45,764 bases of DNA, from IMG/VR virus record IMGVR_UViG_3300009181_000128, positions 1 to 45,764 of that record. One strand, written 5' to 3'. Origin of the DNA: a virus. The notes under the pieces were generated by a model. The model worked only from the letters and a program-made list of their open reading frames with translations, was not told where the DNA came from and did not search any database. Shown here in pieces: positions 10,801-40,023 of the stretch. Within the stretch, counting starts at the first letter, position 1. Each line of letters opens with the position of its first letter. The position numbers and the translations under genes are program-made.

Positions 10801-11199
10801 AGAGGTATCGGAGTAATTATCTTCGGTAACCAAACTGCTTACCAACAAGTTAACTCAGCTTTCAACTTGGTCCATGTAAGGGATCTTTTAATCAGTATAG
10901 AAAGCGACGTACAAGAGATATTAGCTAACTACCTATTTGATTTTAATGACGATTCAATAAGACTTGAGATTAAAACATTAGTTGATAATTACCTTGATGG
11001 TGTTAGAGCAGGTGGTGGTGTTTATGCTTACCAAACTATAATGGATGCATCAAATAACACTCCGGCAATCATCGATATGAATATGGGTATAATTGACGTT
11101 ATAATTGAACCTGCTAGGGGAATTCAGAAATTCATTAATAGGGTTACTGTTACTAGAACTGGTGGAATCGCAGCTGGAGGATTCGTACAATTTGTATAA
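7852..11199 (+). CDS. 18: Contractile tail sheath protein (gp18-like)
   Basis: An 1115-residue sheath protein. The C-terminal third carries the conserved sheath fold, including GFYSPFITVRESNRNIDVPP, a segment around KRRGIGVIIFGNQTAY, and the C-terminal strand region ending GGIAAGGFVQFV that links neighbouring subunits. The N-terminal region starts with the usual sheath opening (SGVYTLEFDAS, VGFSNKGPFNTPVYI). T4 gp18 has 659 residues, so about 450 extra residues are inserted in the middle (roughly 330-760). These are rich in Gly and Thr with repeated TGATG-like motifs and probably form outer domains on the tail surface. It precedes the two tube genes, the standard T4 order 17-18-19. Confidence 0.93.
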   Translation: MANKVKIDYSQFRASGVYTLEFDASQNVILTSQTIRLVVGFSNKGPFNTPVYIPDVTTLISIFGDVDRSLENKGSFFQRSILTCLNTGPVFGLNLLRLNDDVETANPDKVTYQAYSVDTEEANGVVTSRLYSSYYNKERFWFADPNYFLATLSVADQGKLFSLTNLGKSPMSIITRKSTDSSKPLKGYDIFAIDWYGANNVPTFMHPYDYISDYFIDVIAVYGNWTNYQALALDPYYSKYFTNNGFIKSKIDAFLAEPNVSIVTSVTGCIIPDFVDLNGINQYIQTLVNNNTPSSGLFCAIDEVAFDSICDNSSKIDLVGNHLIDELTGDRDLVTPSINFLSYDQVLVADYLYSQNVVGVTGATGFVSPTGGIVYAKGLNVGTLFTLTEAGVTAGVINSSFAAYDPTAFDGGLHYLQTLGLTGATGGFNNAIQKDSLKSFVSVTSSNDEKFIIGVVSGYTGGLTGALINQFSEASLVKLKVTGTKEVSGELRIFFTHPLDNAFYRGQGISVGPTYNLTSYNTGASGSNKPFYTDAYQFGNSDYTDIISVATPDGVTGPGAPLGVSNVLVGYNASPLFQDNKYAAIADGDLVWRNSAGTNLSYLGFETTVDKDQFDLTYVRTFSNVDRAEATIVNVPAFGATYASDNVGFPVSAQAFDIISQEGSINQFIDCTRIDVTTFLITQDSLGNVPLSVGDLVVSTDLDICEPVTGNRQSRLAKVTSVATTTTLGTYRVKIARPALYYTAGVGLRIQKFLSISQFTRSFDFTYLSGFTMTDSHRPNGSDARLSDILDVMYDTNIAKTLASKDIISFRYVVDTFSGQILPNSKYQLSKLAKLRQQALAIINAPSMAQFRASTDPRFTDAPTEPNPYPKLNTAYIADGGNLSLNPTYTFSLPSEDDGSKFCGFYSPFITVRESNRNIDVPPAAYVSNNFLRKFANGEPYAIIAGQKRGVISGGNIVGVEYDFTDEDRGNLEPFGINPIIKRRGIGVIIFGNQTAYQQVNSAFNLVHVRDLLISIESDVQEILANYLFDFNDDSIRLEIKTLVDNYLDGVRAGGGVYAYQTIMDASNNTPAIIDMNMGIIDVIIEPARGIQKFINRVTVTRTGGIAAGGFVQFV

Positions 11200-24885: not shown

Positions 24886-26496
24886 ATGGCTGGTTTTGTA
24901 GAAAATAATAATACATCACAGACTCCTGTAATGCAGAGGATCAGGGATTCCGTAAGGAAACTTAGTACCTTTGGTATGAAGTACGATGACATGGTCATTC
25001 GTAATTCACAAGCAGTTGGTGTTACAGAGGCAGCTTTCTTAAATAAGAATAAATCTAATGTCGAGGACGAGAGCATGTTATGGACTCTTGCCAAGCAGGA
25101 TATATCATCCCGACAATTTATAGGGTACTTTGATAAGGACTACAAAGGGAAAAGAGATTTTCTTAGAAAATTTTCACTTAATCCCGAGATAGAATGGGTT
25201 TTAGATACCGTTTGTGACGAGGCTATTTCTTATGATTCATCAAACTTTTTTGCTTACCCTGATTTTATAGATCTTAGCGATATTAACGATAAGCTTAAGG
25301 ATGATTTATATAACACATATAAGACATTATATGACACGTGGGGATTTTCTGATGATATTACCGCATGGCAATATTTTAGACAATTTATAATAGACGGATT
25401 TTTAGCATTCGAGATAATCTACGACGATAAGGGACAGAATATAATAGGATTCAAGGAGCTTGATGCTATTACACTTATTCCTAGCGTCGAGAAACAGATA
25501 GATGGTAGCTTCATGAGTACATGGACACAATACCCGCAGGATCCTAAAAAGAAAAGAGTACTTTACGAACCTCAGATCATTTACATCTCCTATGCTAAGG
25601 GTAATTCAATTTCAAGGATAAGTTACATTGAGAGATTGATAAGACCGTATAACATCCTTAGAATAATGGAATACACCAGAGTTATCTGGTCTGTTATGAA
25701 TGCTTCATTTAAGCTTAAGATGACAGTTCCTATCGGATCTAAATCTCAACAAAAAGGTATGCAGACTCTAGGGGAGTTAATGAGTATCTATAAGGAGGAC
25801 ATTGAGCTTAATGATGAAAGCGGTGAATTAACAATAGACGGAAGGCCTAAGATTCAGTTCTATAAGAATTATTTAATGCCATCAGGTGTAAATGGAACAC
25901 CTACTATAGAACCAATAACAACCGATGGGCCTAATCTAAATGATCCGCAACCTCTAGCTTATTTCTTCGATAAATTTATACTGGAATCTAAAGTTCCACC
26001 ATCAAGATTCCATAATCCTGACGGAGGTAGCACATCTCCATATTCGAATGGTGCTGAAGGATTAGATAAAGAGGAAATAAGATTCTCCAAATTTATATCC
26101 AGATTAAGATCAGTTTTCCAGGAGATAATGATTAAACCTCTTTGGATACAAATGGCAAAGAAATATCCTAAATTGGAAGACGACTTTATGTTTAAGAGTC
26201 AATTAGGATTAGACTATTTTTCTGATAATCCATTTAAGCTTAATCAGGAAATGGATATGATGAATAAGAGGAAGGAAGGTATATCAGCGATGGGTGGATT
26301 ACTTGGCGACGAGGAAAAACCATATTTTTCTAATGCTTTTCTTATAGAGACATTCCTTGGTATGTCTAAGCAGGACATAGATGCTAATAAAGAAGCCCTC
26401 GAAAGAAAGGCAAAGGAGAAGAAAAAGGAAGAGGAAAAAGGCAAAGAAGGTGGAGAGAAAAAAGAGGGTGAAGAAGCACCCGAAGTAACACTATAA
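24886..26496 (+). CDS. 20: Portal protein, copy 1 (gp20-like)
   Basis: A 536-residue portal protein (T4 gp20: 524). It carries the family segments LRKFSLNPEIEWVLDTVCDE, WQYFRQFIIDGFLAFEIIYD, IIYISYAKGNSISRISYIER, then the RPYNILRIMEYTRVIW stem helix, MQTLGELMSIYKEDIEL and QFYKNYLMPSG. The portal ring is the DNA channel, the packaging motor dock and the nucleus for prohead assembly. The C-terminus is Lys/Glu-rich and ends APEVTL. A full-length paralogue follows after 4 bases. Nothing suggests that either copy is degraded, so the ring may be mixed or the copies may act at different stages. Confidence 0.93.
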   Translation: MAGFVENNNTSQTPVMQRIRDSVRKLSTFGMKYDDMVIRNSQAVGVTEAAFLNKNKSNVEDESMLWTLAKQDISSRQFIGYFDKDYKGKRDFLRKFSLNPEIEWVLDTVCDEAISYDSSNFFAYPDFIDLSDINDKLKDDLYNTYKTLYDTWGFSDDITAWQYFRQFIIDGFLAFEIIYDDKGQNIIGFKELDAITLIPSVEKQIDGSFMSTWTQYPQDPKKKRVLYEPQIIYISYAKGNSISRISYIERLIRPYNILRIMEYTRVIWSVMNASFKLKMTVPIGSKSQQKGMQTLGELMSIYKEDIELNDESGELTIDGRPKIQFYKNYLMPSGVNGTPTIEPITTDGPNLNDPQPLAYFFDKFILESKVPPSRFHNPDGGSTSPYSNGAEGLDKEEIRFSKFISRLRSVFQEIMIKPLWIQMAKKYPKLEDDFMFKSQLGLDYFSDNPFKLNQEMDMMNKRKEGISAMGGLLGDEEKPYFSNAFLIETFLGMSKQDIDANKEALERKAKEKKKEEEKGKEGGEKKEGEEAPEVTL

Positions 26497-26500
26497 TAAG

Positions 26501-28129
26501 ATGGCAGGATTTTTAGATTTTTTAAAACCGAATCAATCTGCACTAGGTAATATATTAAAAAACCTAGGCAACATATCAAAATTTGGCATGCAGTATGATG
26601 ATATGGTTGTGAGAAACTCGCAGGCCATTGGTAAGACGGAGGGATTTTTCTATAATCAGGACGGAAATGGATTTACCGAGAATGATGCGTTTTATTGGAC
26701 AGCTTCATATCAGGACACAAAGGTAAGAAAATATATTGCTTATTTTGATAGAGATTATATTGATAAAAGAAACTATCTAAGAAAGTTTTCTCTAAACGGT
26801 GAGATTGAATTTATACTCGATACCATTACTGATGAGGCGATTACTTACGATGATAGAAACTATTTTGCGCAGCCTTCATTTATAAACATAGATCTTAAAG
26901 ATAAGATTAAGGATAAGATGGCTTCTCATTATAATAGACTTTATAATGTTTTTGGATTTCAGAATACAGTATTAGGTTGGCAATACTTCAGACAATTCCT
27001 AATAGATGGATTTCTTGCATTTGAATTAATCTATGACAATAAGGGTAAGGAAATTATAGGATTTAAAGAATTGGATCCAGCATCTCTGCAGCCTGTCGTT
27101 GAAAAGGTTGGTGAAAATGAACACAGACAGTTTTGGATACAATATCCGAAGAATCCACAAATGACAAGAAAGCTTACCAATGAGCAGGTTATCTACATAT
27201 CATATGCTAAGGGTAATAGCATATCTAGGGTTAGTTATATTGAAAGATTAGTAAGATCGTATAATATATTAAGGATAATGGAGAACTCCAGAGTGATCTG
27301 GAATGTTATGAATGCATCCTATAGATTAAAATTCATTATACCTATTGGAACGCAGTCCCCACAAAAGGCAATGCAGACTCTTGGTCAATTAATGGCAAAC
27401 TATAAGGAGGATATAAATATTAACGATTCTTCAGGTGAATTAACAGTAAATGGTAGACCAAAGGTTCAATTCTACAAGAATTATTTATTTCCTGAAAAAG
27501 ATGGGGTGTCTCCGGAAATATCATCGCTTAATTCAAGTGGTCCTGATTTCAATGTAATGGAGAATGTTCTATATTTCTTCAATAAGTTAAAAATGGATTC
27601 AAAAATACCATACGCTAGATTTGCATCAAAAAGTGGAACCCCCGCGACATACCAAATAAGTATAGATCAGTTAGAAAGAGACGAGATTAGATTTGAAAAG
27701 TTTCTAAGAAGATTAAGATCCATATTTCAGGAACTTCTTGTAAAACCACTTTATATTCAGATGTGTTTAGACAATCCTGAATTATCAAGGGACAAGAGTT
27801 TTAAAGCCAATATAGGACTTAACTATAACAGGGATAGTGAATTCGAGGAAATGGTTGAGATGTCCGGATATGCTAAGAGAAGTGAATTTATTAAGGGACT
27901 AGAAGAACTAAAGGTAAAGGCTGGTGAGGAAGACAAACCTTACTTCGATCCGGATTTCCTAATTCAGAGATTTCTTGGACTTAATCCTGACCAGATTAAA
28001 ATGAATGATAAGTATAAGGAAAAAGAAGCTAAGGCAGCTGCACCAGCAGAAGGGGAAGCTGCTGCACCAGCGGAAGGAGAAGCTGCACCGGCAGAGGGTG
28101 AAGAAAAAGCACCTGAGGTAACACTATAA
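26501..28129 (+). CDS. 20: Portal protein, copy 2 (gp20-like)
   Basis: A 542-residue portal paralogue with the same segment order as copy 1: FGMQYDDMVVRNSQAIG, LRKFSLNGEIEFILDTITDE, WQYFRQFLIDGFLAFELIYD, YISYAKGNSISRVSYIER, SYNILRIMENSRVIW and QFYKNYLFP. It differs in the N-terminal 30 residues, the loop after QFYKNYLF and the C-terminal tail, which has Ala/Pro/Glu/Gly repeats (APAEGEA) before the shared end APEVTL. Start lies 4 bases after the copy 1 stop, so both are translated from one message. Full length and conserved core indicate selection on both. Confidence 0.92.
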   Translation: MAGFLDFLKPNQSALGNILKNLGNISKFGMQYDDMVVRNSQAIGKTEGFFYNQDGNGFTENDAFYWTASYQDTKVRKYIAYFDRDYIDKRNYLRKFSLNGEIEFILDTITDEAITYDDRNYFAQPSFINIDLKDKIKDKMASHYNRLYNVFGFQNTVLGWQYFRQFLIDGFLAFELIYDNKGKEIIGFKELDPASLQPVVEKVGENEHRQFWIQYPKNPQMTRKLTNEQVIYISYAKGNSISRVSYIERLVRSYNILRIMENSRVIWNVMNASYRLKFIIPIGTQSPQKAMQTLGQLMANYKEDININDSSGELTVNGRPKVQFYKNYLFPEKDGVSPEISSLNSSGPDFNVMENVLYFFNKLKMDSKIPYARFASKSGTPATYQISIDQLERDEIRFEKFLRRLRSIFQELLVKPLYIQMCLDNPELSRDKSFKANIGLNYNRDSEFEEMVEMSGYAKRSEFIKGLEELKVKAGEEDKPYFDPDFLIQRFLGLNPDQIKMNDKYKEKEAKAAAPAEGEAAAPAEGEAAPAEGEEKAPEVTL

Positions 28130-28157: not shown

Positions 28158-29132
28158 ATGGGATTAAATATACAGCAGGAATTTTTAAAATCAAAAATAC
28201 TAGTAATCGGTGACATAATGCTGGATCATTATGTTATTGGAACGGTTTCCCGTATTTCACCGGAATCCCCAGTTCCTGTATTATTAAAGGAGTCTGAGCA
28301 TTACTATTTAGGAGGAGCGGGGAATGTATTTTCTAATGTTCATAGTCTTGGTGGACACAGCGATATATTATCTGTTATAGGTGATGATGCTTCTGGAGAT
28401 ATTGTAATGGAGAGTGTTAATTCAAAATCAGATTTAAGTATCCTGCTGAAGTCTTCTTCTAGAAAAACAACATGCAAATCAAGATATATCTGTAATTCAC
28501 ATCAGCTTCTCAGAGTTGATGATGAAACATGCGATAATATAGATCTTGCTACTTCCGATTCTTTTATTAAAAAATATAGATCAATTATTGATCTATATGA
28601 TTGTGTGATAATAGAGGATTATAACAAAGGACTATTAACGCCTGATGTAATAAAGCAATCAATATCAATAGCAAAATCCAGAAATAAGATGGTTATAGTG
28701 GATCCTAAGATCAAGAACATCGGATATTATTCAGGATGCACATATCTCAAACCAAATTTTTCAGAGTTCTGCCTAATGGTTGATGAAAAATTGGAGATAT
28801 CAAATATCAGCCATATAGTCAATAAAGCAAGAGAAGTATTAACTACCATGTCAATTGAAGGAATACTAATAACCCTATCAGATAAGGGTATTTTGTATGT
28901 TGATTCTACCACTCATCATCATAGTCTAGGTTACCCGATTAATGTTTCTGATGTCTCCGGAGCTGGAGATACAGTAACTGCAATGTTTGCGCTTGCAACA
29001 TGCACGGGGCTAGATATAGAAAATTCACTAGCTCTCTGTAACATAGCAGGATCTATAGCGTGCTCACGGACAGGAGCAGTATCTGTTAACATCTCAGATG
29101 TCATAAAAAACCAATATTTTAAATTCAGATAG
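28158..29132 (+). CDS. hldE: D-glycero-D-manno-heptose-7-phosphate kinase (HldE N-terminal domain)
   Basis: A 324-residue PfkB-family kinase that matches the first domain of E. coli HldE. Shared stretches: VIGDIMLDHYVIGTVSRISP, ESPVPV, YYLGGAGNVFSNVHSLGG (GG 52-53), IIEDYNKGLL, VIVDPK and YLKPNFSEF. The catalytic anion-hole motif GAGD is at 268-271 (D271 as base). The enzyme phosphorylates heptose-7-phosphate at O-1 in the ADP-heptose pathway. The nucleotidyltransferase domain that completes HldE is missing, so the protein is HldA-like; phage genes outside this window or host enzymes would have to complete the pathway. It follows the portal genes by 28 bases. Confidence 0.88.
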   Translation: MGLNIQQEFLKSKILVIGDIMLDHYVIGTVSRISPESPVPVLLKESEHYYLGGAGNVFSNVHSLGGHSDILSVIGDDASGDIVMESVNSKSDLSILLKSSSRKTTCKSRYICNSHQLLRVDDETCDNIDLATSDSFIKKYRSIIDLYDCVIIEDYNKGLLTPDVIKQSISIAKSRNKMVIVDPKIKNIGYYSGCTYLKPNFSEFCLMVDEKLEISNISHIVNKAREVLTTMSIEGILITLSDKGILYVDSTTHHHSLGYPINVSDVSGAGDTVTAMFALATCTGLDIENSLALCNIAGSIACSRTGAVSVNISDVIKNQYFKFR

Positions 29133-29139
29133 GGTATTA

Positions 29140-29171
29140 TTTTTTTAAAACGGATTAGTTTATTATATTTG
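29140..29171 (+). promoter_or_regulatory. Bacteroidota-type promoter (T-run, 17 bases, TATATTTG)
   Basis: Seven T (29140-29146), exactly 17 bases, then TATATTTG (29164-29171), matching TAnnTTTG. The DNA ligase start lies 16 bases downstream. It probably serves the replication block ligase to the UvsE-like gene. Confidence 0.65.
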
Positions 29172-29187
29172 TGAAAAATAAACTACC

Positions 29188-30519
29188 ATGATAGAAGAAT
29201 TAAGACTATTTAAAAGACTTGAACATCTTACCGGCGAAGGATCGCAGAAAGCAAAACAATTATTAATTAAGGAAAACCTTACTGAAAGATTTTCCTATAT
29301 GCTCGATGTCTGTTACAATCCATTTGTTACAACTAAGCTTCATAGGATATTATTTAATGAATATCTCGATGACAATAATCATAACCATTGGGAGGATTTC
29401 GTAAAGCTAGTAGAGGAGCTTAAAAAGGCACCTGCGGCAAATGATTTACTAAGGGGAAGAGCCAATACTTTAATATCACAAAAAATCTCAGATGATCCGG
29501 CTGAGGATATGGAATTAAGGAATATTCTCATGAAGATCCTCACAAAGAGAATGAATATAGGCATAGGTGCTAAGCTTATCAATAAAGCTGTTTCAAGGGA
29601 TCTTATTCCCGATCCGTCCTTAATGCTAGCTACCGATGATCATTCAACCATTGATAAATGGGGTAAGATATATTGTGAGGAAAAGTACGATGGTGTTAGA
29701 GTTATAGCACTATATAAGAATGGCGAATTCTCATACTTTACTCGTGCATTTAATGAATTGGATGCAACATGTTTTCCTAAAATAACATTTGACCTCAAAA
29801 CTTGCATTATAAACAGTGGATTGCACGGAGATTGGTTTTTTGATGGGGAATTAACAGATTTGAATAGAAAATCTGTTAGCGGTAAGGTCACACAGATTTT
29901 AAGAGGAACTGTTGATTCATCAATTGAATCTGGCTTGCTATTCAATGTTTTTGATTTTGAGGAGGCATCCAGTCTGGAAAGAGGATCGGGAGTTATTGAT
30001 TATTCGACAAGAAGATCAACGTTAGAAACAATAATGAAATACATCGGCGATGATTCGCCAGTAAAGCTTGCCCAAATGTGGGAGCTTTCTGATCCTAGTG
30101 AGGTAACTGAAATTTATAAAAGAATTGTTGATATTGGAGGGGAGGGAGTAATTTGTAAGGACAATGGGATATACGAGTGTAAAAGATCCAAATCATGGGT
30201 AAAATTTAAGGAGGTTAGCGATTGTGATTTAGAGATAACTGGTTGGTATCCTGGAGAGGGAAAGAGAGAAGGGTTCATTGGCGGATTTATTCTTACAGAT
30301 AAATCAAAAACACTTAATGTTAGAGTTGGAGCAGGGTTTACCGACAATGATTTAAAAACACTTAGCGCTGATGCAGATTCACACATAGGAAAAATAGCTG
30401 CAATACAGTATAATGTTACGATAACTGATAAGCACGGTAATCGATCACTATTTCTTCCTCGATTCATAGAGATAAGAAATGATAAGGATTCTGCTGACGA
30501 TTTTTCGGCAAAGTTTTAA
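29188..30519 (+). CDS. lig: ATP-dependent DNA ligase (gp30-like)
   Basis: A 443-residue ATP-dependent ligase in the T4 gp30 class (487). The adenylated lysine is K166 in motif I EEKYDGVRV. Other nucleotidyltransferase motifs: FTRAFNE, WFFDGELTD (motif III), GEGVICKD (motif IV) and KSWVKFKE (motif V), followed by an OB domain with DCDLEITGWYPGEGKREGF. The N-terminal 150 residues are the helical DNA-binding domain. It seals nicks during replication and repair. First gene behind a host-type promoter and next to the clamp loader, so expression should be early or middle. Confidence 0.95.
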   Translation: MIEELRLFKRLEHLTGEGSQKAKQLLIKENLTERFSYMLDVCYNPFVTTKLHRILFNEYLDDNNHNHWEDFVKLVEELKKAPAANDLLRGRANTLISQKISDDPAEDMELRNILMKILTKRMNIGIGAKLINKAVSRDLIPDPSLMLATDDHSTIDKWGKIYCEEKYDGVRVIALYKNGEFSYFTRAFNELDATCFPKITFDLKTCIINSGLHGDWFFDGELTDLNRKSVSGKVTQILRGTVDSSIESGLLFNVFDFEEASSLERGSGVIDYSTRRSTLETIMKYIGDDSPVKLAQMWELSDPSEVTEIYKRIVDIGGEGVICKDNGIYECKRSKSWVKFKEVSDCDLEITGWYPGEGKREGFIGGFILTDKSKTLNVRVGAGFTDNDLKTLSADADSHIGKIAAIQYNVTITDKHGNRSLFLPRFIEIRNDKDSADDFSAKF

Positions 30520-30552: not shown

Positions 30553-31497
30553 ATGATACAAGAATTATTAACAGAGAAACTTAGGCCGAAAGAACTACGA
30601 CACATGATTCTTCCGAAAAGAATATCAAACATATTCGAAAATGGATTAAATCAGAATGTTCTTTTAAGTGGTCCTCCTGGATGTGGAAAGACCACATTGG
30701 CTAAAATATTAGCATCCCCATATCCTCATATTTTCATCAACGGATCCGATGAGAGTTCGGTTGATACGATTAGGGTGAAGATAAATGACTTTTGTTCGAC
30801 AATTTCTGTGATGGACGGGAAATCATCCAAAAAGGTTGTTATCCTTGATGAGTTTGATGGTGTATCTGATCAATTCCATAAAGCACTAAGAGGAACGATT
30901 GAAAAGTTTGCTAGCAATACTAGATTTATTGCAACGTGTAACTACATCAATAAAGTTCCCGATGCTATCCAGAGTAGATTTGAGGTAATCGATTTCAATC
31001 CGGTTAGCATCGAGGAGGAGGATTTATTAAAAGGTGAATGGAATAAGAGAGTGACATTAATACTTAGCAAGCTGGGTATTCAGATTGATGAGACATCTCT
31101 TTCTGAGTTTCAGAGAAACTATTACCCCGACTTTAGATCTGCATTGAACCGAATCCAAACTTGGAGTATAGAGGGAATAAAAGTAATCGATGCAAACAAG
31201 ATTAATGAATTTGGGTGGTCGTATGAGGAATTATATAATCTTATAGTTACATCGAAGGATCCAGTAAAAAATTATCAGAGTATAGTCAGCGAATACCAGG
31301 GAAAGGTTGATGAGGTAATGTCAGCCTTGGGCAGCGAATTTATAAACTGGATAATTGACAATAAACCGGAGCTAAGAAAGATAATTCCGGGAGCTATAGT
31401 TTTAGTTGCGGATCACCAGTCTCAGAGAAATCAGGTTATTGATCCGATGGTATCCCTATTGTCATTAATATTCCAGATACAAAAACTGGTCGATTAA
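30553..31497 (+). CDS. 44: Sliding clamp loader ATPase (gp44-like)
   Basis: A 314-residue AAA+ clamp loader subunit (T4 gp44: 319). Walker A is GPPGCGKTT (40-48), Walker B VVILDEFDG (D99, E100), sensor 1 ATCNYINKVP (N130) and the SRF arginine-finger motif is at 141-143. The C-terminal 100 residues form the helical collar domain. With gp62 it opens and loads the gp45 clamp on primer junctions; in T4 the clamp also activates late transcription through gp55. The clamp gene is not in this window. It ends sharing one base with the guanylate kinase start. Confidence 0.92.
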   Translation: MIQELLTEKLRPKELRHMILPKRISNIFENGLNQNVLLSGPPGCGKTTLAKILASPYPHIFINGSDESSVDTIRVKINDFCSTISVMDGKSSKKVVILDEFDGVSDQFHKALRGTIEKFASNTRFIATCNYINKVPDAIQSRFEVIDFNPVSIEEEDLLKGEWNKRVTLILSKLGIQIDETSLSEFQRNYYPDFRSALNRIQTWSIEGIKVIDANKINEFGWSYEELYNLIVTSKDPVKNYQSIVSEYQGKVDEVMSALGSEFINWIIDNKPELRKIIPGAIVLVADHQSQRNQVIDPMVSLLSLIFQIQKLVD

Positions 31498-32033
31498 TGG
31501 AAAATAATAAGAGAATAATACTAGTAGGTAAGGGCGGATCTGGTAAAGATTATGCTAGAAAACTATTAGAGGATGCAGGATTCAGATATTGTGTCTCACA
31601 TACAACAAGACCTCCAAGGGAGGGAGAGATTAATGGTAAGGACTATTATTTCATAAGCAAAGATGCTGCTGCCCATCAATTTGCAGCAAAGGATCTTTTC
31701 TATGAGTATGTGATATTCAATGGATGGGTATATGGAACTACAAAGGACGAGTTTGCAAAATCAAACCTATTTATAATGACACCATCCGGCATATCGAAGA
31801 TTAAGTCATCGGATAGAGTAGAATCATTTATAGTATATTTTGATATTGATGAATTAACCAGAAGAAATAGACTTCTATCCAGAAGGGATGCAGACAATGT
31901 CGAAAGAAGAATAGAAGCTGATGAGAAAGACTTCGAAAACTTTAACGATTTTGATCATAGAATAGATGACCCTAATTTTGGTATGAATGATATTAATATT
32001 AGGAATTTTAAAATAATAACATTAGAACATTAA
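31497..32033 (+). CDS. gmk: Guanylate kinase-like nucleotide kinase
   Basis: A 178-residue P-loop kinase. P-loop LVGKGGSGKDYA (K17), GMP-binding signature SHTTRPPREGEINGKDYYFI (about 35-52), and a lid with RRNRLLSRRDADNVERRIE. It should phosphorylate GMP/dGMP to the diphosphate for DNA synthesis. In the P-loop the usual Ser/Thr after GK is Asp (GKD), a change also seen in some phage and deoxynucleotide kinases; activity may be altered. Start overlaps the clamp loader stop by one base, within the replication operon. Confidence 0.85.
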   Translation: MENNKRIILVGKGGSGKDYARKLLEDAGFRYCVSHTTRPPREGEINGKDYYFISKDAAAHQFAAKDLFYEYVIFNGWVYGTTKDEFAKSNLFIMTPSGISKIKSSDRVESFIVYFDIDELTRRNRLLSRRDADNVERRIEADEKDFENFNDFDHRIDDPNFGMNDINIRNFKIITLEH

Positions 32034-32038
32034 GAGAT

Positions 32039-33190
32039 ATGATCAATATTTTAATAGACGGTAACTATATTTTTCACAAAACTTTCGGAATTTTTGGTGG
32101 GTATGGTAATATAGATCCCGGTAAAGTTCTAAAGGATAAGAGCGAACAGAGTGCTTTCATAAGAAAGGTATCAACCGATCTTTGTTCATCATTAAAGATG
32201 ATCCCACAGGGAGGAAGATTAGTATTCACCGCAGATAGTAGAAGCTGGAGAAAGGATGTAGAAATAGAAGATGGCGGATATAAATCGGGAAGGGTCAAGG
32301 ATGAAAATGTTGACTGGTCTATATTCTTCGATCTTATGCAGGCATTTGGATCACATTTGGAAAAAATGGGATTTATATTTTCTAAAGTTGAAGGTGCAGA
32401 GGGTGATGATTTACTTATGTACTGGTCGGATTATTTTAATTCCAAGGATGAGAATTGTATTATTATAACGGGTGATAAGGATTTACACCAATTAGCAAAG
32501 GTGTCAACAGGTGCATGGACAGCTATATGGAATAATAATTCGAAGAAGAATATGATATCCGTTCCAAATGGTTGGAAAGAAACGTGGCTGGAAAAGAATG
32601 AATCTGTAAATATATTTAATATGGCTTCCACTATATCCCCCGAAAAGGAGAGGTTTAAAGACTTTTTGAAAAAGGTTCAAATAGAGGATATACAGAGTAA
32701 ACCTTTTATATTTAATAAAATACTTATTGGTGATAAAGGTGATTCTGTTCCGAGCGTTTGGTCATATGAGCAAAATGGTAAGCCAGTAAACTTTACACAA
32801 AGAAAGGCGGATGTAGTTTATGGTGCATTTCTTGAATCCGAATGGTGTGATGAATCATTCACAACACTTATTAATTCCGCAGAGAGCGATGAATTTTTGA
32901 ATTGGCTAAGCGGATTAGTTATCAGAACATCAAAAGGAGTTGATAGCACTGAAAATAGAAATAAGGTAAAATCAAATATACTGCGTAACTTTAAGCTAAT
33001 GTGGCTTGATTCTTCAATGATACCTGAATTTGTTGCTAATGGATGTAATGACGAGATAATCAGGGGAATGTCAATGGAAAAAAAATCAGTATCATTGGAC
33101 AGAATAAAGATTCTTGAAGGAACCGAATGGGTTACCGCTGGATATCAGCCTAAAGGATTTGATCCGTTTGAGAACTTTTTAAAATCATAG
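32039..33190 (+). CDS. rnh: 5'-3' exonuclease/RNase H, FEN family (T4 rnh-like)
   Basis: A 383-residue FEN-family nuclease (T4 RNase H: 305). Acidic metal sites are visible at ILIDGNYIFHKTF (D7), FTADSRSWRKD, EGAEGDDLLMYWSDYF, IITGDKDLHQL and LIGDKGDSVPSV, the last in the helix-hairpin-helix DNA-binding region. A basic patch (KDVEIEDGGYKSGR) matches the bridge region. It removes RNA primers and flaps during lagging-strand synthesis, working with the ligase upstream. All expected acidic residues appear present. About 80 extra residues lie in the middle and C-terminal part. Confidence 0.9.
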   Translation: MINILIDGNYIFHKTFGIFGGYGNIDPGKVLKDKSEQSAFIRKVSTDLCSSLKMIPQGGRLVFTADSRSWRKDVEIEDGGYKSGRVKDENVDWSIFFDLMQAFGSHLEKMGFIFSKVEGAEGDDLLMYWSDYFNSKDENCIIITGDKDLHQLAKVSTGAWTAIWNNNSKKNMISVPNGWKETWLEKNESVNIFNMASTISPEKERFKDFLKKVQIEDIQSKPFIFNKILIGDKGDSVPSVWSYEQNGKPVNFTQRKADVVYGAFLESEWCDESFTTLINSAESDEFLNWLSGLVIRTSKGVDSTENRNKVKSNILRNFKLMWLDSSMIPEFVANGCNDEIIRGMSMEKKSVSLDRIKILEGTEWVTAGYQPKGFDPFENFLKS

Positions 33191-33630: not shown

Positions 33631-34167
33631 ATGAGAAAAGAAAACAATAAACTTATAGATAAGGTGATTAGCAGTTTAGACTGGGACTCTATTTACGAGG
33701 TCAATAAATGCTTCAAGCATGGTGTTGGTGATGGTATTTCTGCAATACCAGGTCTCAAAAGAAAATCATTCTCCGATGGGATAACAAAGCTGGATATAAA
33801 AAATGAGTTAAAAAGCCTATTAAAATACGTTATAGATAATGATCTGAACGAGTTAATATATGGATATTGGATGATATTTTGGACTAATGCTCAATGGTCT
33901 GAAGAATACCTTAATCAGCTAAAGAATCAGATGGATGAGGAGGAGGGAGATGATATGGATAATATCATACTGGATTCCACACTAGAGGTAATATATTCAC
34001 CACAAAGAATCTGTGCTATTGAAAATTCACTACTAAAGGATTCAAAGAGAGAAGAATCCGATGAGATTAAACTCGAGATGATGTTGAGAAAAGCATTAGA
34101 GAAGGAACAGTATGAACTAGCATCAAAAATAAGAGATGTTATAAAGTTGCAAAATAACAACGAGTAA
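33631..34167 (+). CDS. Acidic protein with UVR-like helical hairpin, unknown
   Basis: A 178-residue protein. The C-terminal 30 residues, LRKALEKEQYELASKIRDVI, resemble the UVR helical hairpin that mediates UvrB-UvrC type contacts. The middle contains an acidic stretch (MDEEEGDDMDN). No catalytic motif. The motif GATATATAG ends 4 bases before the ATG; this is too close to be a normal promoter and is more likely coincidence. It sits between gp62 and a possible head protein, ahead of a UvsE-like gene, so a DNA repair partnership is conceivable. Confidence 0.65.
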   Translation: MRKENNKLIDKVISSLDWDSIYEVNKCFKHGVGDGISAIPGLKRKSFSDGITKLDIKNELKSLLKYVIDNDLNELIYGYWMIFWTNAQWSEEYLNQLKNQMDEEEGDDMDNIILDSTLEVIYSPQRICAIENSLLKDSKREESDEIKLEMMLRKALEKEQYELASKIRDVIKLQNNNE

Positions 34168-34183
34168 TCGGATACATACAGTA

Positions 34184-34663
34184 ATGAAATATGTAAAATC
34201 TATAAACGAATTTGATTCCAATGCCTTTGGCGATAGCTATGGGTACGGAAGTGCTAATGGTGTATTTAAAATAAACTATAAACCATTTGCCGACCTTTCA
34301 GTTTCCGTTGGATCTGATCCTAATATGGAAAGAACTGTGAAAGGATCTGAATTCCAGCTGGGTGATGTTGTTATAGGACAGCCTCTTGATTCAAAAAGAA
34401 AGGTTATCGGTGTTATAGTTAGATCATTTAGAAATCCCGATAATAAAGCTTATAGATATTTTATACAAGTTTATAACAAGGGTAAAAAGACCGAAAGAGT
34501 AATTGAAATAAAATCAAATTCTATAGAATTTGCAGAAGGTGGAGATCACGGTAATACAGAAACTAAAGCAAGCGATAAAAACAATGCCGCTACAAGCTCT
34601 TCATTTAATTCTAAGACCGTATATAGTTCAAGCGAACTTGGTTTAGAAACTACCGGCGGATAA
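34184..34663 (+). CDS. Small protein with possible capsid-targeting N-terminus
   Basis: A 159-residue protein starting MKYVKSINEFDSNAFGD. This opening is like the MKTYQEFIAEA leader of T4 internal head proteins, with an I-x-E site (I7-N8-E9) where the prohead protease could cut. The centre (about 55-105) is a small basic beta domain with QLGDVVIGQPLDSKRKVIGV, similar to KOW/SH3-type barrels. The last 50 residues are low-complexity Ser/Asn/Thr. No enzyme motif is seen. The head-packaging idea is inference and competes with a plain cytoplasmic role. Confidence 0.55.
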   Translation: MKYVKSINEFDSNAFGDSYGYGSANGVFKINYKPFADLSVSVGSDPNMERTVKGSEFQLGDVVIGQPLDSKRKVIGVIVRSFRNPDNKAYRYFIQVYNKGKKTERVIEIKSNSIEFAEGGDHGNTETKASDKNNAATSSSFNSKTVYSSSELGLETTGG

Positions 34664-34715: not shown

Positions 34716-35618
34716 ATGATATCAGGCACCAATCAACCAAATATTTCTTATTTAGGACTTCCAAAAGGAAGTATAAATGGCGAGTTTAGAATATCATCAT
34801 ATTCAGATATACTTTCACTTATTTTGGATGTCTGCATAATAAATTCATCAATATCATCCAAGCTAATATTTTTAGATATAAATGAGCTTGATTTAAGTCC
34901 AGAATTTTTTATTGATACCATAGAGGAGGAGGATCCTGAGATTTCTTTGCGAATAAATGATATTAATGGATTAATAAATAAGAACGATCTCAGAATATGC
35001 TTTTTTATAGGCAAGGATTATTTCTTAGGAAGTCAGCTAGATCCAGTAAAAACAAATACCATAAGGCTCCTTAATATACTATCATCAATATTGGACCTTC
35101 TTGGAGTCAATTACCCATCAATTATAGTTAGAGTTGGTTCAGCTTATGGAAATAGAAGGAATACCATGAAGTCATTCTGTGATAGAGTACTATTGCTGGA
35201 TAAAAGCACATCTGAAAAATTATGTGTAACAAATGATGAAAAACCAAGTCTATTTTCTATAACAGATCTTCTATCCGGCATTTATTACGAATCGGGAATA
35301 CCATTATGCTTTAGATCGCTTCCTCATCAATTTAATGCTGGTGGACTTAGTATAAGGGAAGCCCTATTTTTAGCAAGCTCCACATGGAAAAGTGGAGAAA
35401 GACCATTCTTTATACATGGCGAATCCTCCGATATAGATGCACATGGTATTTCACTTTCACCGATACCCACCAATAAACTAACCAGAAGAATACCAACTTT
35501 TGGATTGGACTGCGATATAATCATAGATTCTCCGGGTAGGGAATTAACATACATAGATTACATTAAGAATCATAAATCTCTCCCACCTGTAGTAATAAAC
35601 AAGATAAACAAGAAATAA
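34716..35618 (+). CDS. UvsE/UVDE-family TIM-barrel protein lacking metal ligands
   Basis: A 300-residue protein alignable without gaps over about 110 residues to UV damage endonucleases (UvsE/Uve1). Matching regions: FRISSYS near 24, LRICFFIGKDYFLGS where UVDE has L-R-x-x-x-H-P-G-Q, IIVRVGSAYGNRRNTMKSF (UVDE IIHxGGxYGDK), LCVTNDE (UVDE LENDD), GIPLCFRSLPHQF (UVDE xIPLVLDxHHH), and STWKSG. Metal or catalytic positions are replaced: His by F97, His by R139, Glu by T172, Asp by R200, His by P203, final Glu by D271; H234 and H243 remain. It probably cannot act as a normal UVDE and may bind damaged DNA or have another job. The alignment was made from memory of the family. Confidence 0.6.
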   Translation: MISGTNQPNISYLGLPKGSINGEFRISSYSDILSLILDVCIINSSISSKLIFLDINELDLSPEFFIDTIEEEDPEISLRINDINGLINKNDLRICFFIGKDYFLGSQLDPVKTNTIRLLNILSSILDLLGVNYPSIIVRVGSAYGNRRNTMKSFCDRVLLLDKSTSEKLCVTNDEKPSLFSITDLLSGIYYESGIPLCFRSLPHQFNAGGLSIREALFLASSTWKSGERPFFIHGESSDIDAHGISLSPIPTNKLTRRIPTFGLDCDIIIDSPGRELTYIDYIKNHKSLPPVVINKINKK

Positions 35619-35649
35619 TTTTTTATTTCGGGTATTTGAATTATATTTG
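35619..35649 (+). promoter_or_regulatory. Bacteroidota-type promoter (T-run, 17 bases, TATATTTG)
   Basis: Six T (35619-35624), exactly 17 bases, then TATATTTG (35642-35649). The exonuclease start is 14 bases further on. The T-run begins right at the end of the UvsE-like gene. Same layout as at 15426 and 29140. Confidence 0.65.
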
Positions 35650-35663
35650 CAAAAAATAAAGCT

Positions 35664-36365
35664 ATGTTTAAAAAGGAGGTTATACAGAAATTCCTATATT
35701 TCGATGTTGAGACTGCAGGAATTTATCCAACGCTATCAGAATTGGAATTGGGTAATACCAGGCTTTTCTTAATGTGGAAAAAAAGAGAAGATTATTATAG
35801 AGGAGCTTATCCCGTATTGTCTGAGGAGTCATCCGAAACTATATACAAACAGAAAGCCGGATTGGAACCTGAATTTTCAAGAGTGGTGTGTGTTTCATTT
35901 GGTACATTCGATGATGACGGTGAGCAGAAGTTTATATCATTCTCAGGAAGCGACGAGATTGATATACTCACCAAAACAAACAAAGTCCTTAATAATGCAA
36001 TGGCAAAGAATTGGAAACTCTGCGGACATAATATTAAGGGATTTGATGTGCCATGCTTAGGTAAGAGAATGATCTACAATGGAATAAACCCTTCGGGTAA
36101 TATACAAATATGGGATAAGAAGCCATGGGAAGTCCCATATATGGATACATCGGAGATCTTTGCGTTCGGAAGCTGGATTCAACAGAAGTATCTCAGTCTG
36201 GATCTACTCACGTGCTCGCTCGGGATAGATTCACCAAAAGGTGACTTGGACGGATCTAAAGTAAATGATACTTTTTGGATAGAGAAGGATTATGAAAAAA
36301 TCTCCACGTATTGTGAAGCCGACGTAAGAGCTGTGATGCTAGTCATGGAAAAGATCTGCTTCTAG
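35664..36365 (+). CDS. DEDDy 3'-5' exonuclease (PolB exonuclease-like)
   Basis: A 233-residue exonuclease of the DnaQ/PolB exonuclease type. Exo I is YFDVETAG (D14, E16), Exo II is CGHNIKGFDVP (D128) and Exo III is TYCEADVRA (Y216, D220), making it the DEDDy class. Between them YLSLDLLTCSLGIDSPKGDL resembles the predicted PolB-related exonuclease family. It may proofread, trim recombination ends or degrade host DNA. Single gene behind a host-type promoter and before a terminator stem at 36394, so it seems to be its own short transcription unit. Confidence 0.9.
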   Translation: MFKKEVIQKFLYFDVETAGIYPTLSELELGNTRLFLMWKKREDYYRGAYPVLSEESSETIYKQKAGLEPEFSRVVCVSFGTFDDDGEQKFISFSGSDEIDILTKTNKVLNNAMAKNWKLCGHNIKGFDVPCLGKRMIYNGINPSGNIQIWDKKPWEVPYMDTSEIFAFGSWIQQKYLSLDLLTCSLGIDSPKGDLDGSKVNDTFWIEKDYEKISTYCEADVRAVMLVMEKICF

Positions 36366-36430: not shown

Positions 36431-37246
36431 GTGAACGAAGTATTACATTTTTCGGATTTTTTAAAAAATAAAGTGATTTCTCTTAACGAAAGAGAGATAA
36501 GTCCATTTTATCACGATGTACTAAATCCGGTATTTTGGACAAAAAAGAAGGATAGAAGCGGTGATGAAAAATGGGTATTTGACCAAAGGGTCAGAAGGAA
36601 GCTACTTAGAATAGCAAAAGAATTCTTTTCTAAATTTTCGGATGTACTTAAAGAAAAGAATATAGTTGATATCCAACTTACTGGATCACTATCAAATTTC
36701 AACTATACAGATTTCTCAGATCTTGATGTTCATATTATAGTTGATCTGAAGGGTATAGATGACGACAACCCACAAATTCTAAAACTTGCAATAGATGGAA
36801 TAAGATTCGCATGGAACCTTAGACATGATATAGTTATCAGAGGATATGACGTGGAGTTATATGTTCAGAATGAAGATGAACCGTATACTGCATCAGCTCT
36901 ATTTTCTTTGCTTAATAATGAATGGATTAAGAAACCCGTTTATGATCCACCAACGGTGGATGAAATGGACGTCGATAAAAAATATAACGGAATAGTATCA
37001 GATATAGAGAACCTACATTCGAGATTAATGATATCTGCGGATCTTCCTACAAATGCTAGACAACTATATAAGCGATGCGTTAAGCTCAAGGACAAGATAC
37101 AGAAGATGAGAAAGGAAGGTCTATCTAAGGGTGGAGAAATGTCCATTGGTAATCTTGCATTTAAAAAGCTAAGAAATGAGGGATATATAGAAAAATTAAT
37201 TGATATTATATCAAAGTCATATGATAAGATTTACACGGAAAAATAA
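36431..37246 (+). CDS. Nucleotidyltransferase (NTP_transf_2 fold) with possible capsid-targeting leader
   Basis: A 271-residue protein with a GTG start. The polymerase-beta type nucleotidyltransferase core is clear: LTGSLSNFNYTDFSDLDVHI holds G85-S86 and the metal pair D97/D99, and RGYDVELYVQ supplies the third acidic residue (D140 or E142). The first 20 residues, MNEVLHFSDFLKNKVISLNE, end with L-N-E, the kind of site cut by T4-type prohead protease, and resemble capsid-targeting leaders of T4 internal proteins. The protein could therefore be packaged in the head and injected to nucleotidylate a host target. Substrate unknown. It is read from a late promoter, before another large protein with an L-N-E site. 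Confidence 0.75.
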   Translation: MNEVLHFSDFLKNKVISLNEREISPFYHDVLNPVFWTKKKDRSGDEKWVFDQRVRRKLLRIAKEFFSKFSDVLKEKNIVDIQLTGSLSNFNYTDFSDLDVHIIVDLKGIDDDNPQILKLAIDGIRFAWNLRHDIVIRGYDVELYVQNEDEPYTASALFSLLNNEWIKKPVYDPPTVDEMDVDKKYNGIVSDIENLHSRLMISADLPTNARQLYKRCVKLKDKIQKMRKEGLSKGGEMSIGNLAFKKLRNEGYIEKLIDIISKSYDKIYTEK

Positions 37247-37254
37247 GTTAAATA

Positions 37255-40023
37255 ATGATTATATTATTACCAAAGGCTACAGAATATAAGATAGGGGAGG
37301 ATTTCCCGTTTCTTACGATACCATTAGGAATGGAAGGTGCGGAAAGCGCGTCATTCGAGGATTTTCAGTGGTGGGCGGAATCATCAAAATTTCAGAATTG
37401 GCTAAAAGCTAATCCCAGAGAATGGGTGGCTGATTCGGAGGATTTTACAAAGTATGGTAGTGTAGAACAATATCTACTTGAATGCTACGGATATCAAATA
37501 GACAATATAAATGATATTGATGTTATCATCAATGAAAAAAACAAGGTCGTTTCATTTTCCGAGTTTTCTAAATTAAATGAGGAGGAGCCTGCTAAGGCCG
37601 CTGCTGGTAACGATGCTGAACAAAGGGAAGCTATTAAATTTCACTTTGCATACAATAAATTAAGATCTGAGGGTAAACTTGATGAGACTCTAACCGCTAG
37701 TGAAATACCTGCTGGATCTGATAAGGCTATATTTATTTGTGGTGAGGACCCTTCCACGGGAGAAAATATACTAGAAACATTAAAAGCACTTAGAGCTACT
37801 GGATTTGGTAAGCAATCATCTCAATCAAAAATAGCGCTTGTTAAAATATCTGAAATGGTTCCAGGCGGACCTATTGGTGACGATGAGACTACTGAGACTT
37901 TAACTCAAAGGATAGTTCAGGATGCTACTATACTTGCTGCAATGGGTGGAGCTGGTGTAGTTCTATATGGTACACTTAAGTATGCAGGTGGAGCATTTGT
38001 TGGAAGAAAGCTATTAAAATCGATATCAGGATTTAGTCCTGCAGCTAGAGCAGCAGCAGAGGGTGCTAGATTAATTAAGACTGCAGAAACAGCTACAAAA
38101 GTAGCAGCGGAAGCTACAAAATTGGCTAAGACAGCTACAGAAATAGCGGAAGCAGCTAGATTAACTAGACTTGCTAAGGATGCAACACAAGCAGCAGAAG
38201 CAGCAAAATTAGTAGCTGACGCTGAAAAGGCAGCTAAATGGACAACCAAGTTTAAATCTGGTAGCACATCAACTATTAAAAGTCTATGGAGTGGTGCAAA
38301 GGATATTGCACTACTTAAAAATACGAGAATCATTGGATCAGCTATAGTAAGAGGCGTAAGAGGAGCAAAAGCAGCATACACATTAGGTAAAGTCGGTGTC
38401 GGTGGAGCTTTAAAAGCATTTGGTAAAGGCCTTAGTAAAGGTACTACACAGGGTGGTGCTAAAATTATACCTTTTGTTGGTGAAGTACTTATGGTTATTG
38501 ATGCTGTCGGTTCTACATGGAATTGGTATAGCAGCAAGCAGGCTCCTAGATTTGGTGAGGTGGAATCGTTTGCTCATAATGAGATGGATCCTAAGAAAAT
38601 TCCTATTGGAATACCTATTACTGTGTGTTGGTCTCAGCCAGCAGGAGGTGGATGGGGAACTGCAGTAAGCTTCCTATTTAGTAACGAAACTAGAACAACA
38701 GCGGAGATCATAAAAATCGCAGATAAGGGTAGCTCTTCAATATTCATTGTAACTCAGATCAATGCTAAAGCAATGCAGACCCAGCTTGCTGAACATGACT
38801 TAATTCTAATGTCTTTGGACAATAATGATATTGTAAATGACCAGGATGGGTTTTTAAATACACTTGCAAGAATAGTAGATAATGAGGATCTTGATTTTAA
38901 AATATCATATGTTGATGGTATTGATAAAATAGCAACACTGTTTAATTTTCAAGGAATGTGTGACTGGAGCGTATTTGAAACGGAATTACAAAATGCTTCG
39001 GATCAGCTTATAGTTTCTGATACCAGTGCTCCTGAAACATACGAATTCTATTACGCCAACAAGGACAATGACATAGTAAACGTATCAGGAAAATTGCTGA
39101 CAGACGAGGAATTGAGATCAACAAATCCAACAGATTTGCAAAACATATTTTATGCAGATGAAAGCAACGAGCCATTTGGAAGGGAGGATAAGGATGAAAA
39201 AGTTAAAGAGTCAGAGTATGTTAAATACAATACAATATTAAATGAATCGGAGGTTATAACCAGCATATCTGAATTTACTAATAGATCAATGGGTTTATTT
39301 GAGGATAAAGCGGATCCTAAGGATGTATCAGGAGCAATAACATTGACTCACGAGGAAAATTCAACCCCGGCATCGGTTGCAATATATTTAGTAACAGATA
39401 AGGAGTATGCAAATCCGGATCTTAGAAAATATAGAAATGGTCTATTCACAAACTTCACAATCGATCCTAAAGATTATGGAGCTAAAAAGGATCAACCTAT
39501 ATCGGTTGAAGTTAATACAGTTAGGGAAGAAATTGGGTCTCCTAAGAGAGGTGTTTATGTGTTTACTAAACCTGAACCTAAAAAAGAGGAAGAGAAAGTG
39601 GTTGTAGTAGTTAATCCTATAACTGATGAAGATAAGGACAAAGACAAAGATAAAGAAAAGGATAAAGAAAAGAATAAAGTTAGCGACGATTATTACATCA
39701 AGGTTGATCCAAAGGACGTTCAGGTAAAAGATAGAAGAAGCTCTACTATTATTAGAGATAATTCAGTTGTTGGAGGTGTAAATCTTATTGATAAATTCTT
39801 AACAGACAAGGAGAAAGAAATACTGGGTATCCAGAACTGGAAGGCTATAACATTCGCAAAAGCCCTTCAGGATAATAGAGGTGATGTAATAGAGGTTAAG
39901 CTTAAAAATAGATTTGCATCATTCGGGGATAAAACTAGAAGGTATAGAATTACTGATGGTGAAGCATTTCAAATAGCTAAAAATTTCTCCGGGGAAGTGG
40001 AGGATAGAATAAAATATGAATAA
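37255..40023 (+). CDS. Large 922-residue protein with hydrophobic helices, possible internal head protein
   Basis: A 922-residue multidomain protein. Residues 1-110: small N-terminal domain ending KVVSFSEFSKLNEEE, with an L-N-E site at 107-109. Residues 225-250: Gly/Ala-rich hydrophobic helix (ILAAMGGAGVVLYGT). Residues 262-330: Ala-rich amphipathic helix with 11-residue-like periodicity (TATKVAAEATKLAKTATEIA). Residues 402-425: second hydrophobic helix (AKIIPFVGEVLMVIDAVG). Then a beta-rich region, a Lys/Asp/Glu low-complexity linker and a C-terminal domain with KAITFAKALQDNRGDVIEV. Paired membrane-active helices suggest a channel or ejection protein. Position before protease and capsid genes fits a head component. 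No family recognised. Confidence 0.65.
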   Translation: MIILLPKATEYKIGEDFPFLTIPLGMEGAESASFEDFQWWAESSKFQNWLKANPREWVADSEDFTKYGSVEQYLLECYGYQIDNINDIDVIINEKNKVVSFSEFSKLNEEEPAKAAAGNDAEQREAIKFHFAYNKLRSEGKLDETLTASEIPAGSDKAIFICGEDPSTGENILETLKALRATGFGKQSSQSKIALVKISEMVPGGPIGDDETTETLTQRIVQDATILAAMGGAGVVLYGTLKYAGGAFVGRKLLKSISGFSPAARAAAEGARLIKTAETATKVAAEATKLAKTATEIAEAARLTRLAKDATQAAEAAKLVADAEKAAKWTTKFKSGSTSTIKSLWSGAKDIALLKNTRIIGSAIVRGVRGAKAAYTLGKVGVGGALKAFGKGLSKGTTQGGAKIIPFVGEVLMVIDAVGSTWNWYSSKQAPRFGEVESFAHNEMDPKKIPIGIPITVCWSQPAGGGWGTAVSFLFSNETRTTAEIIKIADKGSSSIFIVTQINAKAMQTQLAEHDLILMSLDNNDIVNDQDGFLNTLARIVDNEDLDFKISYVDGIDKIATLFNFQGMCDWSVFETELQNASDQLIVSDTSAPETYEFYYANKDNDIVNVSGKLLTDEELRSTNPTDLQNIFYADESNEPFGREDKDEKVKESEYVKYNTILNESEVITSISEFTNRSMGLFEDKADPKDVSGAITLTHEENSTPASVAIYLVTDKEYANPDLRKYRNGLFTNFTIDPKDYGAKKDQPISVEVNTVREEIGSPKRGVYVFTKPEPKKEEEKVVVVVNPITDEDKDKDKDKEKDKEKNKVSDDYYIKVDPKDVQVKDRRSSTIIRDNSVVGGVNLIDKFLTDKEKEILGIQNWKAITFAKALQDNRGDVIEVKLKNRFASFGDKTRRYRITDGEAFQIAKNFSGEVEDRIKYE

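Follow-up and report, generated by a model that had tools for sequence, protein, structure and literature searches.

The window, a virus record of 45.8 kb (45,764 nucleotides; IMG/VR record IMGVR_UViG_3300009181_000128), carries genes for a T4-like portal, a terminase, a contractile sheath and replication, and is probably a fragment of a larger genome. Its replication genes include an open reading frame, annotated initially as an intact UvsE-family gene with most metal-binding residues replaced, whose product we call the pseudoenzyme (Table 1). Three scans of IMG/VR yielded 77 loci encoding such proteins, with 34-96% identity, and 59 distinct proteins including the window's own.

Table 1. Features of the pseudoenzyme locus, in window coordinates
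Feature	Position	Strand	Remarks
TATATTTG, Bacteroidota-type -7-like element upstream of the ligase gene	29164..29171	+	likely operon start
ATP-dependent DNA ligase	29188..30519	+	PHROG 114, 5.5e-73
Clamp-loader large subunit (gp44-like)	30553..31497	+	PHROG 168, 2.5e-62
Guanylate-kinase-like protein	31497..32033	+	PF00625, 4.3e-21
RNase H / 5'-3' exonuclease	32039..33190	+	PF02739, 1.3e-10; PHROG 107
X1, 140 aa	33194..33616	+	PHROG 35599, unknown; also in Lak, LR756500 and MaF61 phages
X2, 178 aa, C-terminal UVR (UvrB/UvrC interaction) motif	33631..34167	+	
X3, 159 aa	34184..34663	+	always directly upstream of the pseudoenzyme gene
UVDE pseudoenzyme ORF, 300 aa	34716..35618	+	ATG start, no internal stop; probably last gene of the replication operon
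F97 codon (Tth H101 position)	35004..35006	+	F/Y/I/C/L/S/M in the family, never H
R139 codon (Tth H143 position)	35130..35132	+	Arg in 59/59
T172 codon (Tth E175 position)	35229..35231	+	T/M/V/L/I in the family
R200 codon (Tth D200 position)	35313..35315	+	Arg in 59/59
P203 codon (Tth H203 position)	35322..35324	+	P/A/G/N/S in the family
I233 codon (Tth H231 position)	35412..35414	+	I/F/V in the family; alignment certain within one residue
D271 codon (Tth E269 position)	35526..35528	+	sole ligand position that is still acidic (D/E in 55/59)
TATATTTG, -7-like element upstream of the exonuclease gene	35642..35649	+	likely next transcription unit
Stand-alone 3'-5' exonuclease	35664..36365	+	downstream neighbour of the pseudoenzyme gene; PHROG 25228, 1e-32

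Replication genes around the pseudoenzyme

The gene order ligase, gp44, kinase, RNase H, X1, X2, X3, pseudoenzyme, exonuclease and nucleotidyltransferase (NTase) is found in 76 of 76 loci, as far as the contigs and the profile matches reach, and X3 adjoins the pseudoenzyme gene in all 76. Some divergent members have an extra stretch of about 800 bases between the pseudoenzyme and exonuclease genes. From gp44 through the pseudoenzyme gene, the median intergenic gaps are -3 to 44 bases. The motif TAnnTTTG precedes the ligase gene in 29 of 49 relatives and the exonuclease gene in 19 of 57, and in the relatives scanned it is absent upstream of all seven genes that run from gp44 to the pseudoenzyme. 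Because its count over the whole window is not above chance, it is the position of the element, and not its number, that is informative. Given the short gaps and the restriction of the element to the ligase and exonuclease genes, the pseudoenzyme gene probably closes a co-directional replication operon.

X1 is a candidate for the clamp-loader small subunit (gp62-like). UVR motifs join UvrB to UvrC and are also found in other proteins. In the X2 family, 23 of 28 members match the UVR family PF02151, at E values up to 0.1 (best 1.9e-7). X2 is predicted to form a helical hairpin, for which Foldseek returned no significant structural match, a result that does not show a new fold. Since UVR motifs occur in other proteins too, the connection of X2 with repair is a lead and not proof.

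After the 3'-5' exonuclease, nearly all relatives encode a nucleotidyltransferase-like protein (window 36431-37246) with a weak match to NTP_transf_2 and a match to PHROG 36119, of unknown function. A PfkB-type sugar kinase (28158-29132; 5.6e-29) is encoded beside the replication operon in part of the relatives only. Elsewhere in the window, two consecutive genes (24886-26496 and 26501-28129) both match the portal PHROG 213 (9.7e-54 and 5.2e-69), possibly as a tandem portal duplication giving two portal-like subunits, and a very long tail-sheath-like protein of 1115 amino acids (7852-11199) has its best sheath match in its C-terminal part. The products of 34184-34663, 36431-37246 and 37255-40023 contain an INEF / SDFLxxxxxxLNE-like stretch, some of them at the start. 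To our impression these stretches recall T4-type capsid-targeting sequences, and the proteins that bear them could be packaged.

The UVDE fold and its former metal site

Judged by profile and pairwise comparisons, the kinship of the window protein to UV damage endonuclease (UVDE) is not due to chance. It matches the Pfam family UvdE (PF03851) at 39.2 bits against a gathering cut-off of 24 (E 6.5e-10), and its relatives score 25.9-58 bits. A phmmer search with the window protein finds SacUVDE (PDB 3tc3) at E 5.8e-17 and the UVDE of Thermus at E of about 1e-8. Used as a profile, the phage pseudoenzyme family reaches 3tc3 at E 2.9e-25. Unlike the UVDE/UvsE enzymes, it fails the cut-off of the NCBIfam UvsE equivalog TIGR00629, with 30.3 bits against 124.45.

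An AlphaFold2 model built on a 19-member alignment (pLDDT 85.7, pTM 0.87) has UVDEs as all of its top PDB matches, with Z scores of 24.7-26.6 and an rmsd of about 3 over 252-268 residues; SacUVDE gives Z 26.6 with an rmsd of 3.0 over 268 residues. The Tth (2j6v) and Sac (3tc3/4gle) enzymes thus share the predicted fold (Z 25-27 over about 252-268 residues) at 17-23% identity, and Asp174 (Tth D177), Pro196, Trp224 and Arg93 (Tth R97) are common to pseudoenzyme and UVDE. Endonuclease IV (Nfo) has the same TIM-barrel fold and the three-metal chemistry of UVDE, but it is a poorer structural match to the window protein, at Z 18.1 and below with 8-12% identity. Sugar isomerases follow at Z of about 16-17. 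Another TIM-barrel family as the better match was rejected, UVDE standing 8 Z units above both. The initial assignment to the UvsE family therefore holds for the Pfam match, the match to 3tc3 and the fold (Z 26.6), and the structural comparison that it had called for places the predicted model closest to UVDE entries, with other TIM-barrel families well below. The geometry of the pocket around the former metal site is inferred in what follows from the alignment rather than from model coordinates.

We aligned the 59 distinct pseudoenzymes (the window protein and 58 relatives) with 35 intact UVDEs, among them those of Bacteroidota, Neomarinimicrobiota, Thermus, Priestia, Pantoea and haloarchaea and of phages SP-15, G and LIS04 and an Erwinia phage. 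In Tth numbering, we take the eight ligands of the UVDE/endonuclease IV metal site to be H101, H143, E175, D200, H203, H231, H244 and E269. All eight are invariant in the 35 intact UVDEs; none of the first seven is kept in any of the 59 pseudoenzymes, and no intermediates retaining some of these seven were found among the 59 sequences. At the H244 position the window protein has no His equivalent, and the family has mostly Pro and never His among the residues listed. SacUVDE, which lies outside the set of 35, apparently has Asp at the place of H231 in phmmer alignments, so this one ligand may not be universal.

When fixed-but-different columns are defined by one residue in at least 95% of the pseudoenzymes and another in at least 85% of the intact UVDEs, the alignment contains exactly two, R139 and R200. 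Further conserved basic residues gained by the pseudoenzymes are K/R148, R214 and R258. The motifs GSAYGNR, NDxxPSLFS and RIP are invariant in the family, as are D174 and E236. The surroundings of the former ligands are only modestly more conserved than the remainder of the protein, with 17 of 261 shifted controls as low. The lesion-probing pair of the Tth enzyme, Gln104 and Tyr105, is replaced by K/R and D/E in most of the 59 pseudoenzymes; in intact UVDEs position 104 itself varies (P/Q/H) and the aromatic residue at 105 is kept. Because this pair is not kept, lesion recognition of the UVDE type by the pseudoenzyme is doubtful.

The five substitutions named initially (F97, R139, T172, R200 and P203) fall on Tth H101, H143, E175, D200 and H203, and the estimate of at least five lost positions proved low, as H231 (I233 here) and H244 are gone as well, bringing the loss to seven of eight. 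Conservation of the substitutions in homologues had been proposed as a check, and the loss of ligands recurs in all 59 distinct proteins. The two histidines said to remain are indeed present, but H204 corresponds to Tth H204, a residue outside the eight ligands, and H234, next to the H231 position, is His or Tyr in 19 aligned relatives. An alignment restoring the ligands at shifted positions, the circumstance under which the initial reading would have fallen, was considered and rejected: intact UVDEs have six columns of conserved His, whereas the pseudoenzymes have a single one and conserve no Cys, and a His-rich three-metal site is therefore excluded under any alignment. These comparisons indicate that the metal-based cutting centre, with all three metal-ion sites, has very likely been lost across the family.

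Selection, intact paralogues and origin

Pairwise dN/dS is 0.03-0.11 in pairs without synonymous saturation. Since the substitutions are kept in 59 of 59 distinct proteins at such ratios, they are not the product of sequencing error or decay; a decaying gene, rejected by dN/dS and synteny together, had already been discounted by the initial annotation. Homology to an enzyme family, loss of its catalytic residues and purifying selection are the marks of a pseudoenzyme, and all three are present on the sequence data. The family is a pseudoenzyme branch of the UVDE family. Its placement in a replication operon, also part of the first reading, finds support in the fold, the loss of seven of eight ligands, the purifying selection and the fixed place in the operon. 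The net charge of the pseudoenzymes ranges from -10 to +3 and is slightly acidic on average; intact UVDEs are mostly acidic too.

A second, full-length UVDE open reading frame (E 1e-46 to 1e-55) lies about 95-126 kb from the pseudoenzyme gene in 15 records, comprising 14 of the 14 searched that are at least 137 kb long, some of them near-copies of each other, and one of 116 kb. This paralogue is known from the records of larger relatives, the 45.8-kb window being too short to show an intact copy of its own. The six distinct second UVDEs that were aligned have all eight ligands, as does the only UVDE that the huge phage LR756502 carries, and one phage paralogue passes the TIGR00629 cut-off of 124.45 with 170.9 bits. 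The intact phage UVDEs (for example L044, L029 and L032; 304-317 amino acids) occur in the same genomes and belong to the same fold family as the pseudoenzymes (profile-profile E 1e-23 over 216 columns), but they have the eight ligands and lie about 100 kb away; in the tree they fall apart from the pseudoenzymes, among the intact UVDEs of Bacteroidota and others. Their nearest bacterial relatives are mostly from Bacteroidota, at 42-50% identity, which suggests a host in this phylum; the huge viruses carrying the pseudoenzyme probably infect Bacteroidota. Where the neighbourhood of the intact UVDE gene was looked at, it contains a gyrB-like topoisomerase gene and a DnaJ gene, both named by reading.

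In genome G223, a split family B DNA polymerase is encoded by two open reading frames, L168:1462-2859 (-) and L164:1447-2592 (-), of about 466 amino acids (exonuclease part, DxxSLYP) and 382 amino acids (NSxYG, YGDTDS). Some 14-18 kb separate the halves, and the intact UVDE gene lies in between; the same pattern of matches is seen in G003, G004, G011 and G220.

In a midpoint-rooted tree the pseudoenzymes form one group (100/100), which branches outside every intact UVDE on a long stem of 1.87. A recent duplication of the phages' own intact UVDE is unsupported by this separate grouping, and the exact origin of the pseudoenzymes is unsure given the midpoint rooting and the length of the branches. 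A bacterial source was rejected: when 84,980 bacterial and archaeal genomes were scanned by pattern, no relative of the pseudoenzyme turned up, and the bacterial proteins matching the family profile proved, where inspected, to be ordinary UVDEs. Database phages gave few matches, all to UVDE genes, and those aligned have intact ligands. By terminase, the nearest known phages are uncultured huge phages, Sphingomonas phage PAU, Tenacibaculum phages and Lak phages. The records of LR756500, LR745206, Lak-B5 and MaF61, which are kin through X1 or the exonuclease, contain no match to the pseudoenzyme anywhere. LR756500 keeps the gp44-RNase H-X1 block, and no X2, X3 or pseudoenzyme gene was seen in the stretch around it. 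Given these absences, X2, X3 and the pseudoenzyme look like clade-specific additions.

Possible functions of the pseudoenzyme

From the sequence comparisons, we give roughly an even chance to the pseudoenzyme being a non-cutting DNA-binding helper that works with the replication machinery; of the three functions floated initially (lesion sensing, blocking of host repair, a new activity), lesion or DNA binding fits best. The barrel would still bind DNA, probably at ends or at damaged or distorted sites, and the guanidinium groups of R139 and R200 would hold the backbone phosphate at the former places of the metal ions without hydrolysis. Acting at the replisome or close to it, the protein might then mark or protect a DNA site that it leaves uncut, while contacting other proteins encoded in its operon, namely the clamp loader, ligase, RNase H and UVR protein. 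Lesions could be handed to the intact UVDE of the phage, or to host repair or Uvr proteins by way of X2. A more elaborate and tentative version, which we hold to be doubtful, has a three-metal TIM-barrel nuclease turned into a replisome-linked lesion sensor in which Arg replaces the metals, acting in tandem with the intact paralogue and a UVR-motif adaptor as a phage-specific damage-surveillance module.

The barrel may instead no longer bind DNA and serve purely as a scaffold or regulator through protein-protein contact, for example by pairing with the phage's intact UVDE, with X2 or X3 or with the clamp loader, with R139 and R200 filling the metal cavity by salt bridges to residues such as D271, E236 and D174. 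Such internal Arg-carboxylate bridges are possible because position 271 is acidic in 55 of 59 members and E236 and D174 are invariant, and the tight linkage to X3 and the coexistence of a full-length UVDE in every large record searched are also in keeping with a scaffold. We consider this role somewhat unlikely, as salt bridges would not obviously demand Arg at both places in all members, nor GSAYGNR, NDxxPSLFS and RIP, and the intact UVDE is encoded outside the operon of the pseudoenzyme. TIM barrels often change chemistry, and sugar isomerases of the same fold are among the matches; the old pocket could thus house a metal-independent enzyme acting on a nucleotide, DNA end or modified base, with the invariant Arg residues, Asp174, Glu236 and the near-invariant His204 in catalysis or substrate binding. 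Conservation of family-specific residues near the former active site down to 34% identity speaks for an enzyme, but the sequence hints at no substrate or reaction, His204 is lost in 2 of the 59 proteins, and the operon context, the guanylate-kinase-like gene excepted, is one of replication and not metabolism, which makes a new activity unlikely on the whole.

The UVR motif of X2, a kind that links UvrB with UvrC, would suit interference with host repair, in which the pseudoenzyme binds UV lesions or the host UVDE or Uvr proteins and prevents the host from incising phage DNA or its own. Of the three functions floated initially this is the least attractive, since these phages retain an intact UVDE by which they would carry out incision themselves; UVDE is also perhaps uncommon in the likely hosts (the phage profile, which may miss some UVDEs, matched 3 of 198 sampled genomes from the phylum of Rhabdobacter roseus, the Bacteroidota), and we regard it as improbable. 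Even slighter is the chance that nuclease activity persists through metal ligands drawn from other positions: its nine remaining conserved His or acidic columns would in principle be enough for one metal ion, but they include a single His column and no Cys, and Arg at two of the ligand positions would repel metal.

UvdE is known in jumbo phages and has been assigned to repair (Iyer et al. 2021, PMC7824862); that text, searched for mentions of inactive proteins or of UvdE, shows no ligand-less paralogue. Our search of the open-access literature found general papers on UVDE and on jumbo phages and no description of a conserved ligand-less UVDE paralogue. Annotation pipelines would name the gene UvdE, and the phages would therefore be credited with two UV endonucleases, one of which is almost certainly not a UVDE-type nuclease. 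These genomes provide a natural experiment, in which one fold occurs with and without its metal centre and the metal-less copy is under strong selection. If Arg does hold DNA phosphate at the places of the metals, this would be a simple route from a three-metal nuclease to a non-cutting DNA sensor, and it would connect replication with repair in very large phages, a connection that is poorly known there.
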